This document shows, one piece after another, positions 18,010 to 28,343 of a stretch of DNA of 64,000 bases. The stretch comes from Algoriphagus lutimaris (GTDB lineage: Bacteria > Bacteroidota > Bacteroidia > Cytophagales > Cyclobacteriaceae), in contig NZ_JAFIDJ010000001.1 in the NCBI RefSeq assembly GCF_017051705.1, positions 2,013,786 to 2,077,785 of the forward strand, given 5' to 3'. Positions within the stretch are counted from its first letter, which is position 1. Each line of letters starts with the position of its first letter. The notes beneath the pieces are model-generated. The model was not told where the DNA came from. It saw nothing but the letters and a program-made list of their open reading frames with translations, and did not search any database. The position numbers were made by a program, and so were the translations under genes.

Positions 18010-18705
18010 TCAACTCATCGCCAATCGATACCTCCAAATCTCTCTTACCTGTTCGATCTCCACCTCAAAAGGCGGGTAAATCGGATTGGCGGAACAAAGT
18101 AGCAACTTCTTTTCTTTTTGGATTCGATTGTAAGCCAGTTTAAAAGTTACGCCATCCTGTTCGGTTACCACCACATAGCGTTCCCCATTTTTGATGGACA
18201 GCCAATCATCTACATATTCACAAACGATCCAAGCTCCATCAGGGATGGGAAGCATAGAATCTCCATCTACCTGAAACACGCGATGCTTTTTATCCATGGG
18301 TAGAAATGGCAAGGAAAATCGAGGCAAATCAGCAATGTATTCCGGATCGGCAAAACCGGCCAGGTAACTTGCTTTGGCACGTTGGGAAACCACTTCGATT
18401 AGCTCCCTCCCCTGTTCATCCACGGTCGTCGCCAAAACCCGAAGTTTTCTTCCTCTCAGAAACTGGTCTGTTTCCAGCAATTCACGAAGCTTATATTCCG
18501 AATAAGATGTCAAATCTTCCCGAAGCAAGATATCCACTGATACCCCCAGATGATCCGATAGCTTCACCAAGGTTTCCAAGGGAGGATTGACATTGAGCTC
18601 ATAGCCTGCCAGTTTAGATCTGGAAATCCCCAAGGCAGAGGCTAACATCTCTTGGGTGAGCGATTTTTTCTTTCTTAGAAACTTAATGTTGGCGTTTAAA
18701 GTCAT
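18010..18705 (-). CDS. XRE-S24 self-cleaving repressor (LexA/HdiR-like)
   Basis: The ATG at 18705 is preferred over 18735 because the protein then begins directly with the XRE helix-turn-helix (about 5-60, LTQEMLASALGISRSKLAGYE). A linker follows with a likely autocleavage site Ala116-Gly117 (SYLAGFADPEY), then an S24 peptidase domain with Ser150 (VDGDSMLP) and Lys189 (VTFKLAYN) as the catalytic dyad. Such proteins repress DNA-damage genes and are inactivated by RecA-stimulated cleavage. In this window dinB, dnaE and ogt are plausible targets, and element B is 11 bp upstream of its own start. Confidence 0.9.
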   Translation of the reverse strand: MTLNANIKFLRKKKSLTQEMLASALGISRSKLAGYELNVNPPLETLVKLSDHLGVSVDILLREDLTSYSEYKLRELLETDQFLRGRKLRVLATTVDEQGRELIEVVSQRAKASYLAGFADPEYIADLPRFSLPFLPMDKKHRVFQVDGDSMLPIPDGAWIVCEYVDDWLSIKNGERYVVVTEQDGVTFKLAYNRIQKEKKLLLCSANPIYPPFEVEIEQVREIWRYRLAMS

Positions 18706-18715
18706 AATTATATCT

Positions 18716-18764
18716 GAAATACAGTGGAAACACAATGGAAATAAGCCCGCAAGCGGGCGAAATA
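18716..18764 (+). repeat. GAAATA iteron element B, upstream of the S24 repressor gene
   Basis: Three repeats, GAAATA 18716, GAAACA 18727 and GAAATA 18738, are spaced exactly 11 bp. A perfect palindrome GCCCGCAAGCGGGC (18745-18758) follows, then a final GAAATA (18759-18764). It occupies almost the whole gap between the four-helix-bundle gene and the repressor gene. Confidence 0.7.
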
Positions 18765-18769
18765 CTAGA

Positions 18770-19171
18770 CTAGCTATTATCTTTTAGTTGATTTTTAGCA
18801 GAATAAGTAGATTTAATCATGTTATTTAACCTGACTTGAACATCACGCCTGAGCTGATTGAATAATAAGAATTCTTGATCAGAAACAATACCTCTTTCAA
18901 AGCCCAAATCAATCCAATGTTCTACGCCTTCGGATAAAGATGCCCTTGAAATGTAATAGAATCTGGATTTTTCTGAAAAATGAAATCGAGCATATCCCTC
19001 AGCAATATTTGCTCCTACTGAATCAACAGCAGATAACATTTGATCGCCCCAAACTTTCTTTTCTTGAAAACTCAACCGTTGATAAACAGTCCATGCACTC
19101 GTAGAAAGCTTTCGGGAAAGACGATAAACCTCTAGCTCATGAATTGGGATATAAGCTGATTTCTCATTCAT
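18770..19171 (-). CDS. Four-helix-bundle protein (23S rRNA intervening-sequence protein family)
   Basis: The 133-residue protein matches the four-helix-bundle family by ELEVYRLSRKLS at the start, the central DSVGANIAEGYAR and SEKSRFYYISRASLSEGVE, and the helical C terminus. Members are encoded in rRNA intervening sequences and many other contexts; related Avd proteins assist diversity-generating retroelements. No rRNA or reverse transcriptase is present here. It lies upstream of the S24 repressor gene on the same strand, with element B between them. Function unknown. Confidence 0.88.
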   Translation of the reverse strand: MNEKSAYIPIHELEVYRLSRKLSTSAWTVYQRLSFQEKKVWGDQMLSAVDSVGANIAEGYARFHFSEKSRFYYISRASLSEGVEHWIDLGFERGIVSDQEFLLFNQLRRDVQVRLNNMIKSTYSAKNQLKDNS

Positions 19172-19222
19172 ATTTTATTTTTTAGTGGAGTATATTTTTT
19201 ACGAAATAGATTTCGAATCAAT

Positions 19223-19274
19223 TATTTCACCGACCGAAGGGAGGTGTATTTCCATTTTATTTCTATTGTATTTC
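19223..19274 (-). repeat. GAAATA iteron element C, between the four-helix-bundle gene and dinB
   Basis: On the minus strand GAAATA occurs at 19274, 19263 and 19252 (first base) with an 11-bp period. Then comes the hairpin-prone core CACCTCCCTTCGGTCGGTG (19246-19228) and a last GAAATA (19228-19223). The core differs from element E by one base. It lies in the divergent gap 19172-19407. Confidence 0.7.
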
Positions 19275-19362
19275 GCTACAGGCAAATCCTGCAAAGCATA
19301 TCTCCCCCTTTCCGTCAATCTCCTTCAATCTTTCACTCCAAGTATCCAAATATAAAACTTTT

Positions 19363-19400
19363 GTTTAAATTATAAACATTAAAATGTCAATTTAATTAAC
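19363..19400 (+). promoter_or_regulatory. 38-bp box, copy 1, dinB promoter (candidate operator)
   Basis: The box begins with the dyad GTTTA-aatta-TAAAC and continues ATTAAAATGT into an imperfect palindrome of GTYAATT/AATTRAC arms. It ends 8 bp before the dinB start codon. A copy at 27907-27944 is identical at 34 of 38 positions. The dyads and position suggest a repressor site or core promoter for the mutagenesis genes. Confidence 0.65.
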
Positions 19401-19407
19401 AATACAA

Positions 19408-20598
19408 ATGGAAGGGAAGAGAAGCATCGTGCACATGGATTTGGATTCCTATTTTGTGTCGGTAGAACGGTTATTTGACAGCAGGCTCAACGGGAAGCCT
19501 ATATTGATCGGGGGCTCAGGAGACCGTGGGGTCGTAGCTTCCTGTAGTTATGAAGCAAGAAAATTCGGGGTACACTCTGCCATGCCCATGCGTACTGCCA
19601 GGCAACTTTGTCCCGAGGCATTGATCATCCGAGGAGATTTCGAAAAGTACAGTCAAAAATCCCACGAGGTCACCGAGATCATTCGGGAGGAAGTCCCTTT
19701 GTTTGAAAAATCCTCCATCGATGAATTCTACATCGATCTTACGGGAATGGATCGCTTTTTCGGTTGCTTTAAGCTTTCGCAGCAAATCCGACAACGAATC
19801 ATGAAAGAAACCGGGCTGCCTATTTCCCTAGGACTCTCAGAAAACAAAACTGTCTCTAAAGTAGCTACGGGTGAAGCTAAACCCAATAATGAAAAACAGG
19901 TTCTTTTTGGGGAAGAAAAGCCTTTTCTCGCCCCTCTTTCGGTGCGGAAAATCCCTATGATCGGAGAGAAAACCTCCCAAACGCTCTACAATATGGGCGT
20001 TCGGAAAGTGCATACCTTGCAGCAAATGCCAGCCGAACTCCTGCAGGCTACTTTTGGAAAAAATGGGAATATGATCTGGGAAAAGGCTAATGGCATCGAC
20101 CGGTCTCCGGTAACTCCTTACTCTGAAGCCAAATCCATCTCTACGGAAAACACCTTCGAACAGGACACCATTGATGTGAAAATGCTGGAAGCAACGCTCG
20201 TAGCCATGTGTGAGCAACTCGCTGGAAAGCTCCGTCAAAACCTACAGTTAACAGCCTGTGTGAGTGTGAAGATTCGCTATTCAGATTTTGATACACACAC
20301 CGTACAGCAACGCATCCCCTATACTTCCGCAGACCATACGCTGATCCCACTGGTCAAGGAACTTTTCCGTAAGCTCTACAACCGTCGCATGTTAATCCGC
20401 CTGATTGGAGTACGTTTCAGTTCGCTGGTTTATGGCAATTACCAGATCAAACTCTTTGAAGATACTCAGGAGCAAATCAACCTGTACCAGGCCATGGACA
20501 AAATCAATGGAAAGTTTGGAGAAAAAACCATCTGCCGAGCCGTAGGCATGAGCGTAGGAAGAAGAAGGTTCAACCCATTCAATGGAATGGCTGTATGA
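19408..20598 (+). CDS. dinB: Y-family translesion DNA polymerase (Pol IV/ImuB-like)
   Basis: The 396-residue polymerase has the catalytic residues Asp11 (HMDLDSYF), Asp105 and Glu106 (SSIDEFYIDLTG), and the nucleotide-binding YEARKFGVHSAMPMRTA. The thumb HhH region (VRKIPMIGEKTSQTLYNMGV) and little-finger domain (to about 350) are complete. It bypasses DNA lesions with low fidelity. The XRE-S24 repressor on one side and a second DnaE further down form the Bacteroidota damage-mutagenesis set. The 38-bp box directly precedes the gene. Confidence 0.95.
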   Translation: MEGKRSIVHMDLDSYFVSVERLFDSRLNGKPILIGGSGDRGVVASCSYEARKFGVHSAMPMRTARQLCPEALIIRGDFEKYSQKSHEVTEIIREEVPLFEKSSIDEFYIDLTGMDRFFGCFKLSQQIRQRIMKETGLPISLGLSENKTVSKVATGEAKPNNEKQVLFGEEKPFLAPLSVRKIPMIGEKTSQTLYNMGVRKVHTLQQMPAELLQATFGKNGNMIWEKANGIDRSPVTPYSEAKSISTENTFEQDTIDVKMLEATLVAMCEQLAGKLRQNLQLTACVSVKIRYSDFDTHTVQQRIPYTSADHTLIPLVKELFRKLYNRRMLIRLIGVRFSSLVYGNYQIKLFEDTQEQINLYQAMDKINGKFGEKTICRAVGMSVGRRRFNPFNGMAV

Positions 20599-20659
20599 GA
20601 AAAAGAAGTCTTGAAATTCAATAACACAAGCACGATATTGCTTTAAATTCAACTCTAAC

Positions 20660-21196
20660 TTGAAAAAAGACTCCTATCTCTTCACTTCTACCCATCTTGG
20701 TTTTCGAACCTGGATAGATTCTGACCTAAAACAGTTTAGCTCCATGAACTCTGACCCGGAAACCATGAAATACTTTGAGAAACCTCTGAACATGGAGGAA
20801 TCTAAAGCCATGATGGAGCGGATGAATAAGCTATATGAAGACAAAGGTTATTGTTACTTCGCTGTAGAGCGATTGGAGACAAGCGAATTTTTAGGAATGA
20901 TTGGATTAGGATGGAAGACTTTTGAGGCGGAATTCACCCCTTGTGTGGACATAGGATGGAGAATCCGGAAAGAATTTTGGAACAAAGGCTATACTACCGA
21001 AGGGGCAAAAAGATGCTTGAACTATGCAAAGGAACTTGGACTCAAAGAGGTGCTTTCACTGGCCTCCTCAGACAACAAAGCCTCCATTCGGGTTATGCAA
21101 AAAATCGGAATGGAATATTGGCTGGATTTTGATCATCCGGACCTAAAAAAGTCAAAACATCTGAATCCTTGTAGTTTGTATCGGATAATACTTTGA
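20660..21196 (+). CDS. GNAT family N-acetyltransferase (RimJ/RimL-like), TTG start
   Basis: The 178-residue protein resembles the RimJ/RimL-type GNATs: TRLGFRTW-like N terminus, DIGWRIRKEFWNKGYTTEGAKRCLNYA, then SLASSDNKASIRVMQKIGM. No ATG lies in frame between the upstream stop (20612) and residue 30, so TTG at 20660 is the probable start. It follows dinB by 61 bp. The stop codon overlaps the first GAAATA of element D. Confidence 0.85.
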   Translation: MKKDSYLFTSTHLGFRTWIDSDLKQFSSMNSDPETMKYFEKPLNMEESKAMMERMNKLYEDKGYCYFAVERLETSEFLGMIGLGWKTFEAEFTPCVDIGWRIRKEFWNKGYTTEGAKRCLNYAKELGLKEVLSLASSDNKASIRVMQKIGMEYWLDFDHPDLKKSKHLNPCSLYRIIL

Positions 21197-21235
21197 AATA
21201 CCATTGAAATAAACCTCCCTATGGTCGGTGAAATA
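21195..21235 (+). repeat. GAAATA iteron element D, heading hairpin array 1
   Basis: GAAATA at 21195 and 21206 (11-bp period) is followed by the core AACCTCCCTATGGTCGGTG (21212-21230) and GAAATA at 21230-21235. It is nearly the same as element E (27972-28012). It overlaps the stop of the GNAT gene and runs into array 1. Confidence 0.7.
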
Positions 21236-21246
21236 CTAAACCAAGC

Positions 21247-21441
21247 TATTTCGCCGAAGGCTTATTTCGGACGACGAAGGAGTCCCTATCTCGCCGTAGG
21301 CATATCTCGGGAGCAAAGCGACCCTATCTCAGCGAAGCTGTATCTGAGGAGAGCAGCGACTCTATCTCGCCACAGGCCTATTTCGGACGACGAAGGAGTC
21401 CTTATCGCGCCGAAGGCGTATCTCAGGAGCGTAGCGACCCC
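21247..21441 (+). repeat. Tandem hairpin array 1 (ten hairpin modules)
   Basis: Ten short inverted repeats follow one another, each preceded by a TATTTC/TATCTC-like spacer. Short hairpins (GCCGAAGGC, GCCGTAGGC, AGCGAAGCT, GCCACAGGC, GCCGAAGGC at 21253, 21293, 21331, 21369, 21409) alternate with long ones (GGACGACGAAGGAGTCC at 21269 and 21385; GGGAGCAAAGCGACCC at 21309; related forms at 21347 and 21426). The period of one short-long pair is 38-40 bp. Arm changes keep pairing. This array, element D and the following terminator fill the 306 bp from 21197 to 21502; no gene is supported there. Confidence 0.8.
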
Positions 21442-21442
21442 A

Positions 21443-21478
21443 TAAAAAAAGATGCCACTTCCAATGGAAATGACATCT
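21443..21478 (-). terminator. Terminator of the ferritin-like operon
   Basis: Read on the minus strand, a 12-bp stem with two G-U pairs (21477-21466 with 21462-21451) is followed by eight Ts. It is 25 bp after the stop at 21503. Confidence 0.85.
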
Positions 21479-21502
21479 CACCACCCAACCCAACAATTCT
21501 AA

Positions 21503-22321
21503 TTATGCCAAGAATAAAGACGCTATACCAAGTACCTGATCTTTGCTTAATGGTTCATCCCAGCCTTCGGAGACAGCTGCAGCATCAATCCCGGTCAATG
21601 AAGTCACATCAACTCCTCCCTGCATCACATTTTCTTCTCCAGCATAAATCGCCTGAGTAGCTGCAGGAAGGGATCCGATAGACCCATTGGTGATCCAACC
21701 TTTCACAGTATCCTGACCTTTTTTGGTTCTTAATCTTCTGACCATGGAAGCATGTCTGGCCTCCACCGAATGAATGGAAAGCGCTGCAGTTAAGACTACA
21801 TCTGATTCCATCACATTTCCAGCCTGCCCTTTATAGGCTCTTACCCCTGTATCTTCAAATGCCTGTGAAAGAGCTAAGAAGGTAGGGTAGTCTGTAAATG
21901 GAGAAAAATTCCCTCCAGCAGTAAAGTCAAATTCTGGCTCTTCAACAGGTGTTCCCATCAATACATTTCCAATTACTTCCGTTAAGAAATTGACATGTGC
22001 CAACTCATGATCTCTAATCTTCAAGAAAATATTTCGATCAGCTCCTTCGATTACCCCAGACTCAATGCCCATTTGATAGTACCGGTATTCAAGGTGTTCC
22101 AGTGTCAATGCATAATTGAGTACATCGATCAGACTAGCCGTATCTGCTTTGGCTACTTTTGGCAAGGCCGAAAGTATTCCCAATGGCACCGCTGCCATGG
22201 CTAATTTTTTACTGAGACCTCAAAACTGGCGGAAAGCCTCTCTTCTGGAGAAAAATAGATCCTTTTCTTCCGGACTATTGGTGTCCGGACACATGGTATC
22301 GAGCAATTTTAATAAGTTCAT
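21503..22321 (-). pseudogene. Ferritin-like domain protein with in-frame TGA after the Tat-like signal
   Basis: The frame from ATG 22321 runs MNLLKLLDTM... through a twin-arginine-like motif (SRREAFRQF), meets TGA at 22222-22220, and continues without a shift as GLSKKLAMAAVPLGILSALP and a 231-residue ferritin-like domain (21503-22198). The domain has helices with EHLEYRYYQMG, DHELAHVNFL and SVEARHASMVRR. The stop falls inside the export signal, so the product is either lost or restarts at 22198 without its signal. It lies 24 bp after the next gene in one operon. The TGA could be a sequencing error. Confidence 0.75.
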
Positions 22322-27906: not shown

Positions 27907-27944
27907 GTTTACATTATAAACATTAAAATGTTAATTAAATTGAC
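27907..27944 (+). promoter_or_regulatory. 38-bp box, copy 2, about 400 bp upstream of dnaE
   Basis: Identical to the dinB box (19363-19400) at 34 of 38 positions, with the same GTTTA-n5-TAAAC dyad, ATTAAAATGT core and GTTAATT/AATTGAC palindrome. If it is the dnaE promoter or operator, the dnaE message has a leader of about 400 nt that contains hairpin array 2. Confidence 0.65.
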
Positions 27945-27971: not shown

Positions 27972-28030
27972 GAAATACAATTGAAATATACCTCCCTTCG
28001 GTCGGTGAAATACTATTTCCGTTTTATTTC
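27972..28030 (+). repeat. GAAATA iteron element E, heading hairpin array 2
   Basis: GAAATA at 27972 and 27983 (11-bp period) precedes the core TACCTCCCTTCGGTCGGTG (27989-28007) and GAAATA 28007-28012. Two TATTTC (28014 and 28025), again 11 bp apart, then lead into the array. Confidence 0.7.
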
Positions 28031-28332
28031 GCCGAAGGTATATCTCGCGCAAGCATATCTCGGGAGCAAAGCGACCTTATCTCAGCGTCTACCGAAGGTG
28101 GTAAGCTGTATTTCAGGAGCGCAGCGACTCTATTTCGCCGCAGGTCTATTTCGGACGACGAAGGAGTCCTTATTTCGCCCCGTCTGCCTGCCGAAGGTAG
28201 GAAGGCATATCTCGCGCAAGCATATCTCGGGAGCAAAGCGACCTTATCTCAGCGTCTACCGAAGGTGGTAAGCTGTATCTCAGGAGCGAAGCGTCTCTAT
28301 TTGGCCAAAGGCTTATTTCAGCGTAGCGTAAT
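28025..28332 (+). repeat. Tandem hairpin array 2, in the dnaE leader
   Basis: Same grammar as array 1: TATTTC/TATCTC spacers and short hairpins such as GCCGCAGGT, GCGCAAGC, GGGAGCAAAGCGACC, GGACGACGAAGGAGTCC (28153-28169). Some hairpins carry nested inserts: AGC...GCT at 28084-28107 encloses TACCGAAGGT, and GCC...GGC at 28177-28206 encloses CCT...AGG. A 71-bp block (28041-28111) recurs perfectly at 28208-28278, offset 167 bp. With the 38-bp box and element E it accounts for the 550-bp gap before dnaE. Apparent reading frames on both strands are by-products of the repeats. Confidence 0.8.
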
Positions 28333-28343
28333 ATTATAAAATC

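Follow-up and report, generated by a model that had tools for sequence, protein, structure and literature searches.

A 64,000-nucleotide stretch of the Algoriphagus lutimaris genome (positions 2,013,786 to 2,077,785 of contig NZ_JAFIDJ010000001.1; hereafter the window) holds, as read from its sequence, a run of ten modules at positions 21247-21440 of the plus strand, each with a TATYTC-type spacer followed by a hairpin, five hairpins being short and five long. The question raised by this run, here called array 1, is what kind of element it represents. The initial annotation described tandem compensated hairpins and took them to imply selection on a folded RNA or single-stranded DNA form, but left unreported the leader at 21195-21235, the GA/GA grammar shared by long hairpins and the link to an S23 gene 2 kb away. 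With these included, array 1 resembles not a stand-alone structured RNA but one end plus the internal array of an element of the S23 (IVP) family, and it is most likely the gene-less remnant of such an element. As a whole, the explanation of array 1 as an S23 element lacking its gene, working as proposed below, is the best available, and we regard it as probable.

The left end of array 1 is a leader (21195-21235, plus strand) made of GAAATA units, the inverted hairpin ACCTCCCTATGGTCGGT (21213-21229) and a further GAAATA. The leader, with GAAATA units around ACCTCCCTNNGGTCGGT, is common to array 1, a second array (array 2) and the minus-strand S23 gene (18770-19171), each of which it precedes. 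Six leaders were found genome-wide within 3 mismatches, compared with none for a reversed control pattern, and three of the six cluster within 8.8 kb in this window. The S23 gene (23S_rRNA_IVP; PF05635 at 2.7e-20; TIGR02436) encodes a four-helix bundle of 133 amino acids and is the sole gene of an element at 18716-19274 (minus strand) with inverted ends (GAAATACAGTGGAAACACAATGGAAATA, 18716-18743, and TATTTCCATTTTATTTCTATTGTATTTC, 19247-19274), a leader hairpin within 19223-19245 and an extra hairpin, GCCCGCTTGCGGGC, at 18745-18758. Array 1 has the left end only, the S23 gene and the mirrored end being missing. In a relative (locus L043), the S23 element itself holds a run of the same kinds of hairpins between the leader and the start codon. 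Because the leader is common to three places and the L043 element carries an array, array 1 looks like an S23 element minus its gene and far end.

The locus was followed through 60 genomes of the genus, 55 of which have dinB, and loci were taken from the best 30 of the matches. The grammar of spacers and hairpins recurs in these relatives. The S23 gene lies between a LexA-like gene and dinB in 14 of the 30 loci, in constant orientation, and is absent from that place in 16. The S23 genes of clade 1 (four loci) pair with TATTTC units, and the other ten with TATCTT or TATCTC near the gene. At the array-1 site, L042 and L043 carry other arrays, and L047 and L048 carry none. In the closest relative, G260 (L041), whose dinB is 100% identical in the search table and 99.7% in a separate comparison, a degraded leader abuts the last module at this site and the S23 gene is lost; elsewhere in that genome there is a decayed leader at another site and a leader with three modules near a third. 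Module number differs between close relatives. In a set of ten genomes, the leader and an S23 gene of this subfamily occur together in six, and neither occurs in three. Two relatives without an S23 gene at the site (loci L069 and L046) have, in the interval from the LexA-like gene to dinB, a repeat of an unrelated kind that contains GCGTCATTGCRAGG and its complement.

The main rival to a gene-less S23 element is a regulatory role in the damage-response cluster. S23 and the repeats would then form a regulatory pair and not a mobile element, and hairpin-bound S23 would tune mRNA stability or translation near dinB and dnaE2. Array 2 (27972-28335, plus strand), which consists of a leader (27972-28012) and a longer mixed array, lies between an operator-like site and dnaE2, just upstream of the latter. 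Two relatives also carry an array here, and one of them keeps an intact leader. The operator-like sequence ATTATAAACATTAAAATGT occurs at 19370, upstream of dinB and the S23 gene, and at 27914, upstream of array 2 and dnaE2; the pattern used for it matches nowhere else in the window, and it is possibly a site of the LexA-like protein encoded at 18010-18735. A regulatory pair would also suit the three of six leaders that lie within 8.8 kb of the damage-response cluster, the single orientation of the S23 gene between the LexA-like gene and dinB, and the greater stability of the TATYTC strand under RNA parameters (see below). However, the S23 gene is missing from that position in more than half of the loci, other arrays lie distant from the dinB and dnaE2 genes, and the inverted polarity of the units around the S23 gene is hard to square with regulation in cis. 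A regulatory pair is conceivable, but we consider it unlikely.

Inverted polarity was examined around S23 genes in general by matching the two flanks of each gene to each other, a gene passing when the match lay beyond all of 40 shuffles; the samples were not random but taken from the best matches. A first set comprised 35 S23 genes, five from this genome and 30 among the best matches of a search across the phylum, which hit 90 of 118 genomes. Inverted flanks were found for 18 of the 35 and direct flanks for 6, compared with 1 of 51 (the S23 gene itself) and 3 of 51, respectively, for control open reading frames (ORFs) of the window. The second set was drawn from the best 80 of 251 loci retrieved with an S23 protein pattern, and 70 remained after ten with short flanks were dropped. 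Among these 80, Algoriphagus pacificus and A. aestuarii have the S23 closest to that of the window (97%). Inverted flanks accompany 49 of the 70 S23 genes, and direct flanks 17; for the 151 ORFs that served as controls from these loci, the numbers are 12 and 14. In these 70 loci the units of the GAAATW subfamily are strongly polar: upstream of the gene GAAATW occurs 307 times against 41 reversed, and downstream WATTTC occurs 256 times against 43 reversed. At least two upstream and at least one downstream unit are present in 48 of the 70, the remaining 22 falling short; by their record titles, the loci with these units include Bacteroidota, Patescibacteria, and Omnitrophota. In 34 other S23 loci the same four counts were 9, 7, 16, and 16, and a single locus (1/34) had the units in that number.

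Other S23 loci have repeats of their own. This genome has four further S23 matches (L018, L019, L021, and L022), which lie amid different short repeats, such as CAGTGGTCAGTGATC, GAAGTACGA, and TTTAAAGTTTAAA; L018 and L022 passed the inverted-flank test, and L019 and L021 failed it. In two loci titled Candidatus Shapirobacteria (L175 and L179), repeat units are separated by perfectly paired hairpins of 6-8 pairs that differ from the Algoriphagus ones, and one such hairpin lies inside the inverted flanks of L179.

In the modules of array 1, short hairpins of 9 nt alternate with long ones of 15-17 nt at a period of 38-40 bases, and both the sequence and Tandem Repeats Finder (21246-21440, period 38, five copies, 63% matches) bear out the ten-hairpin array with TATYTC-type spacers first described. 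Spacers start at 21247, 21263, 21287, 21303, 21325, 21341, 21363, 21379, 21403, and 21419; eight of the ten are exact TATYTC, and the other two read TATCTG and TATCGC. The five short hairpins are GCCGAAGGC (two copies), GCCGTAGGC, AGCGAAGCT, and GCCACAGGC, with module 1 forming GCC-GAA-GGC at 21253-21261 (plus strand, as are all modules). The long hairpins follow a rule: an outer arm of 2-4 nt, GA, an inner arm of 1-2 nt, a 3-base loop, and then inner arm, GA and outer arm again. It is obeyed by four of the five in array 1 and by many elsewhere, although spacer hairpins without GA also exist, e.g., GCCCCGCTTGCGGGGC. Module 2 (21269-21285) reads GGAC.GA.C-GAA-G.GA.GTCC and has an identical copy at 21385. 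Module 4 (GGGAGCAAAGCGACC, 21309-21323) was initially assigned to a second long type, GGGaGC/GCgaCCC, which is the wrong register; it reads GG.GA.GC-AAA-GC.GA.CC, and with this correction four of the five long hairpins share the GA/GA internal loop. Module 6 (AGGAGAGCAGCGACTC, 21347-21362) stands outside the grammar, and the final long hairpin (21425-21439), AG.GA.GC-GTA-GC.GA.CC, has one A.C mismatch. Because of these two, the initial claim of compensated arms does not extend to every arm of array 1; it holds in so far as pairing across long modules exceeds slid and shuffled controls.

For these comparisons, candidate long modules from the window and 48 loci of this genome and its relatives were picked by the spacer and the two GA positions, with pairing ignored. 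Watson-Crick pairing among distinct modules was 0.727 for arms 3-2 (n = 30), 0.833 for arms 4-1 (n = 12), and 0.655 for arms 2-2 (n = 29). Random reassignment of the 3′ arms gave, over 500 rounds, mean values of 0.413, 0.486, and 0.394 and highest values of 0.553, 0.700, and 0.509, respectively. Fully paired hairpins also exceeded the shuffle maximum in the 3-2 and 4-1 types (14 vs. 7 and 7 vs. 5), but were not outstanding in the 2-2 type (4 vs. a maximum of 6), and in a fourth type (arms 3-1), with two distinct members, pairing was absent (0.125). Sliding the 3′ partner by 1-2 bases lowered pairing to 0.11-0.41 (sets of 33, 14, and 30). In the pieces between spacers, stems of at least three pairs occur in 34 of 83 distinct pieces of 8-12 nt (5.7 when shuffled) and in 61 of 131 pieces of 14-20 nt (23.0 when shuffled). 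Kinship among modules remains in both the slid and the shuffled controls.

That kinship leaves room for an explanation without function, in which slippage and unequal recombination turn over tandem repeats and the pairing is inherited from founder hairpins. Such turnover would account for the variable module number in close relatives, for the two identical modules of array 1 and for a whole-array stability that is not in excess. It accounts poorly for outer arms that come in 5, 6, and 4 versions among the fully paired long hairpins of the three types, for pairing that falls to background once the 3′ arms are slid, and for the same grammar behind the leader at unrelated sites, and we think it improbable.

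Which strand would fold is suggested by predicted stabilities. In a set of 15 long hairpins of our choosing, stability favours the TATYTC strand over its complement 14 times under RNA parameters and 12 times under DNA parameters, where the other three are tied at zero; ten short hairpins show no difference between strands (0/10). These values suggest that the folding strand is the TATYTC one, be it RNA or single-stranded DNA. The two opposed GA steps and the GNA or AAA loops hint at sheared G.A pairs. Hirao 1994 is cited for d(GCGAAGC) as an extraordinarily stable DNA hairpin (PMC6479982), and this sequence is contained in the array 1 module AGCGAAGCT.

Several familiar categories were considered for array 1 and set aside. 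A clustered regularly interspaced short palindromic repeat (CRISPR) array was rejected, as the initial annotation had done, since the modules vary and lack unique spacers. A known RNA family was likewise rejected: no Rfam family reaches its gathering score anywhere in the window, which agrees with the earlier statement that no named family fits, and the S23 element does not lie in a 23S ribosomal RNA (rRNA) gene. Array 1 lies downstream of the dinB-type polymerase gene, between genes for a GNAT acetyltransferase (20660-21196, plus strand) and a ferritin-like protein (21503-22198, minus strand), the latter with a terminator-like stem of its own outside the array (21449-21479, minus strand). A terminator was rejected, as the scan of 18600-22300 gave no terminator-like hit inside array 1; hits in that region were near shuffle level (4 vs. 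3.7).

A parallel among intergenic repeats is the repetitive extragenic palindrome (REP) and its mosaic clusters (bacterial interspersed mosaic elements, BIMEs), spread in trans by an HUH transposase (Y1, REP-associated tyrosine transposase [RAYT] or IS200-like); the link to S23 would then be incidental. Like REPs tied to a RAYT (TnpAREP; PMC6006769), the hairpins are short and intergenic, occur several per cluster behind a fixed spacer and are associated with one small protein gene. The genome has three Y1_Tnp matches, and atypical secondary structures border TnpAREP of the Bacteroidetes subclass 2.6 (PMC6006769). However, the parts of the flanks read at all three Y1_Tnp loci (L037, L038, and L039) hold their own, different palindromic hairpins, and TATYTC/GARATA is at background there (3, 9, and 6 per ~3.2 kb vs. 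152 in the 64-kb window). Unlike REPs, the arrays here have no GT[AG]G guide at the hairpin foot, the hairpins following TATYTC or near variants, and have GA/GA internal loops; the leader and array are found in S23 elements instead, so that the partner is S23 and not an HUH transposase. As no TATYTC arrays were seen at the three Y1_Tnp loci, a REP/RAYT origin was rejected, and we consider it very improbable.

S23 genes are known from intervening sequences (IVSs) of rRNA. In Coxiella burnetii, as in the S23 element described here, the S23p gene lies between complementary inverted ends, and tandem heptamer repeats are described just upstream of it (PMC4990558). Unlike an IVS, the present element lies outside rRNA and has TATYTC-spaced hairpin arrays and gene-less relatives. 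A 2016 paper described S23p as a protein of unknown function (PMC4990558). The structure model of the window's S23 (pLDDT 93) matches 2gsc, 2rld, and the Avd protein of diversity-generating retroelements (4dwl, 8ub7/8ub8), in which Avd is needed for retrohoming (PMC10053308), and S23 is predicted to be an Avd-like four-helix protein of the kind that such retroelements include. Unlike in those systems, a genome search for reverse transcriptases with PF00078 gave no match at E 0.001, and a retroelement served by a reverse transcriptase of this genome was rejected. TAACTGA heptamer direct repeats of Beggiatoaceae, Cyanobacteria, and Bacteroidetes, for which their author saw no transfer mechanism, are likewise short, intergenic and sporadic across phyla, but have another unit, and the terms S23 and four-helix bundle are absent from its text (PMC4679880). 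As in miniature inverted-repeat transposable elements (MITEs; PMC4853749), gene-less copies share an end with a gene-bearing element; unlike MITEs, array 1 has one clear end, no target duplication was found, and the partner element has no known transposase. Searches of open-access literature brought up no title or abstract dealing with repeats beside S23 genes that lie outside rRNA, nor any account of free-standing S23 elements that combine hairpin arrays, copies without the gene, and inverted units specific to a subfamily.

We propose the following working for S23 elements. A complete element would run from an inverted end of GAAATA units through the leader hairpin to the S23 gene, with TATYTC-spaced hairpins in varying number between leader hairpin and gene in some copies, and close with a TATTTC-hairpin-TATTTC end that mirrors the first. 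S23, a small four-helix bundle whose family has a pentameric ring as its solved member, would bind the repeats of the element that encodes it, either as RNA or as single-stranded DNA. Hairpins would be docking sites, for which shape (the GA/GA internal loop and the short loop on the TATYTC strand) may outweigh sequence. Gene-bearing elements could serve gene-less copies in trans, and gene-less arrays would depend on S23 made elsewhere. The element may be able to move, and its arrays would gain and lose modules by recombination and decay once the S23 gene is lost.

A number of observations weigh against this account of array 1 as an S23 element. S23 of the window is not strongly basic (18 K+R vs. 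16 D+E). Two loci of the second clade, L056 and L063, have TATTTC-type units farther out, and the agreement between clade and unit dialect partly reflects shared descent, because the S23 gene and its flanks travel together. The sites of the closest relative are decayed rather than empty, and neither 15 dinB loci without S23 nor two further sites in that relative show a clean insertion or target-site duplication; L042 has a 5-base ACTTT repeat, perhaps by chance. Among the ten genomes compared for co-occurrence, G214 has the leader without an S23 of this subfamily, three of the six with both have an S23 just 59-62% identical to that of the window, the level of the other clade, and G096 was chosen because it bears the leader, which weakens the association. 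Hairpin spacers are not enriched at distant S23 loci (19 vs. 19.1 shuffled), so that only the units and their polarity are general and hairpins are unsupported there as a trait of this S23 subfamily. Outside the GAAATW subfamily, flank similarity barely tracks protein identity below 60%, and any general coupling of S23 sequence to repeat sequence is weak. Finally, the whole 195-base array is no more stable than dinucleotide shuffles on either strand, as DNA or RNA (z = +0.38, -0.30, +0.34, and -0.32), and array 1 as a stable folded unit was rejected. Selection on a folded form, which the initial annotation had derived from compensated change, is plausible from the covariation but gains no support from whole-array energy, and the kinship kept in the controls tempers it.

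It is conceivable, though we would place it just short of an even chance, that S23 genes constitute a widespread class of selfish elements with no known recombinase, whose sole gene encodes a small Avd-like protein. Units of 7-11 bases, arrayed in inverted orientation on either side of the gene, would be recognized by each clade as its own, and array 1 and other arrays without a gene would be passengers. To these elements would then belong much of the short intergenic repeats that are still unexplained in Bacteroidota and candidate phyla, and the IVSs of rRNA would be a special case that landed in ribosomal RNA. A repeat tied to the S23 protein, with strict polarity around the gene from Bacteroidota to Patescibacteria, provides a candidate ligand for S23, and this link makes the question of S23 function testable at the bench. 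S23 elements also offer an origin for one class of short intergenic repeats.
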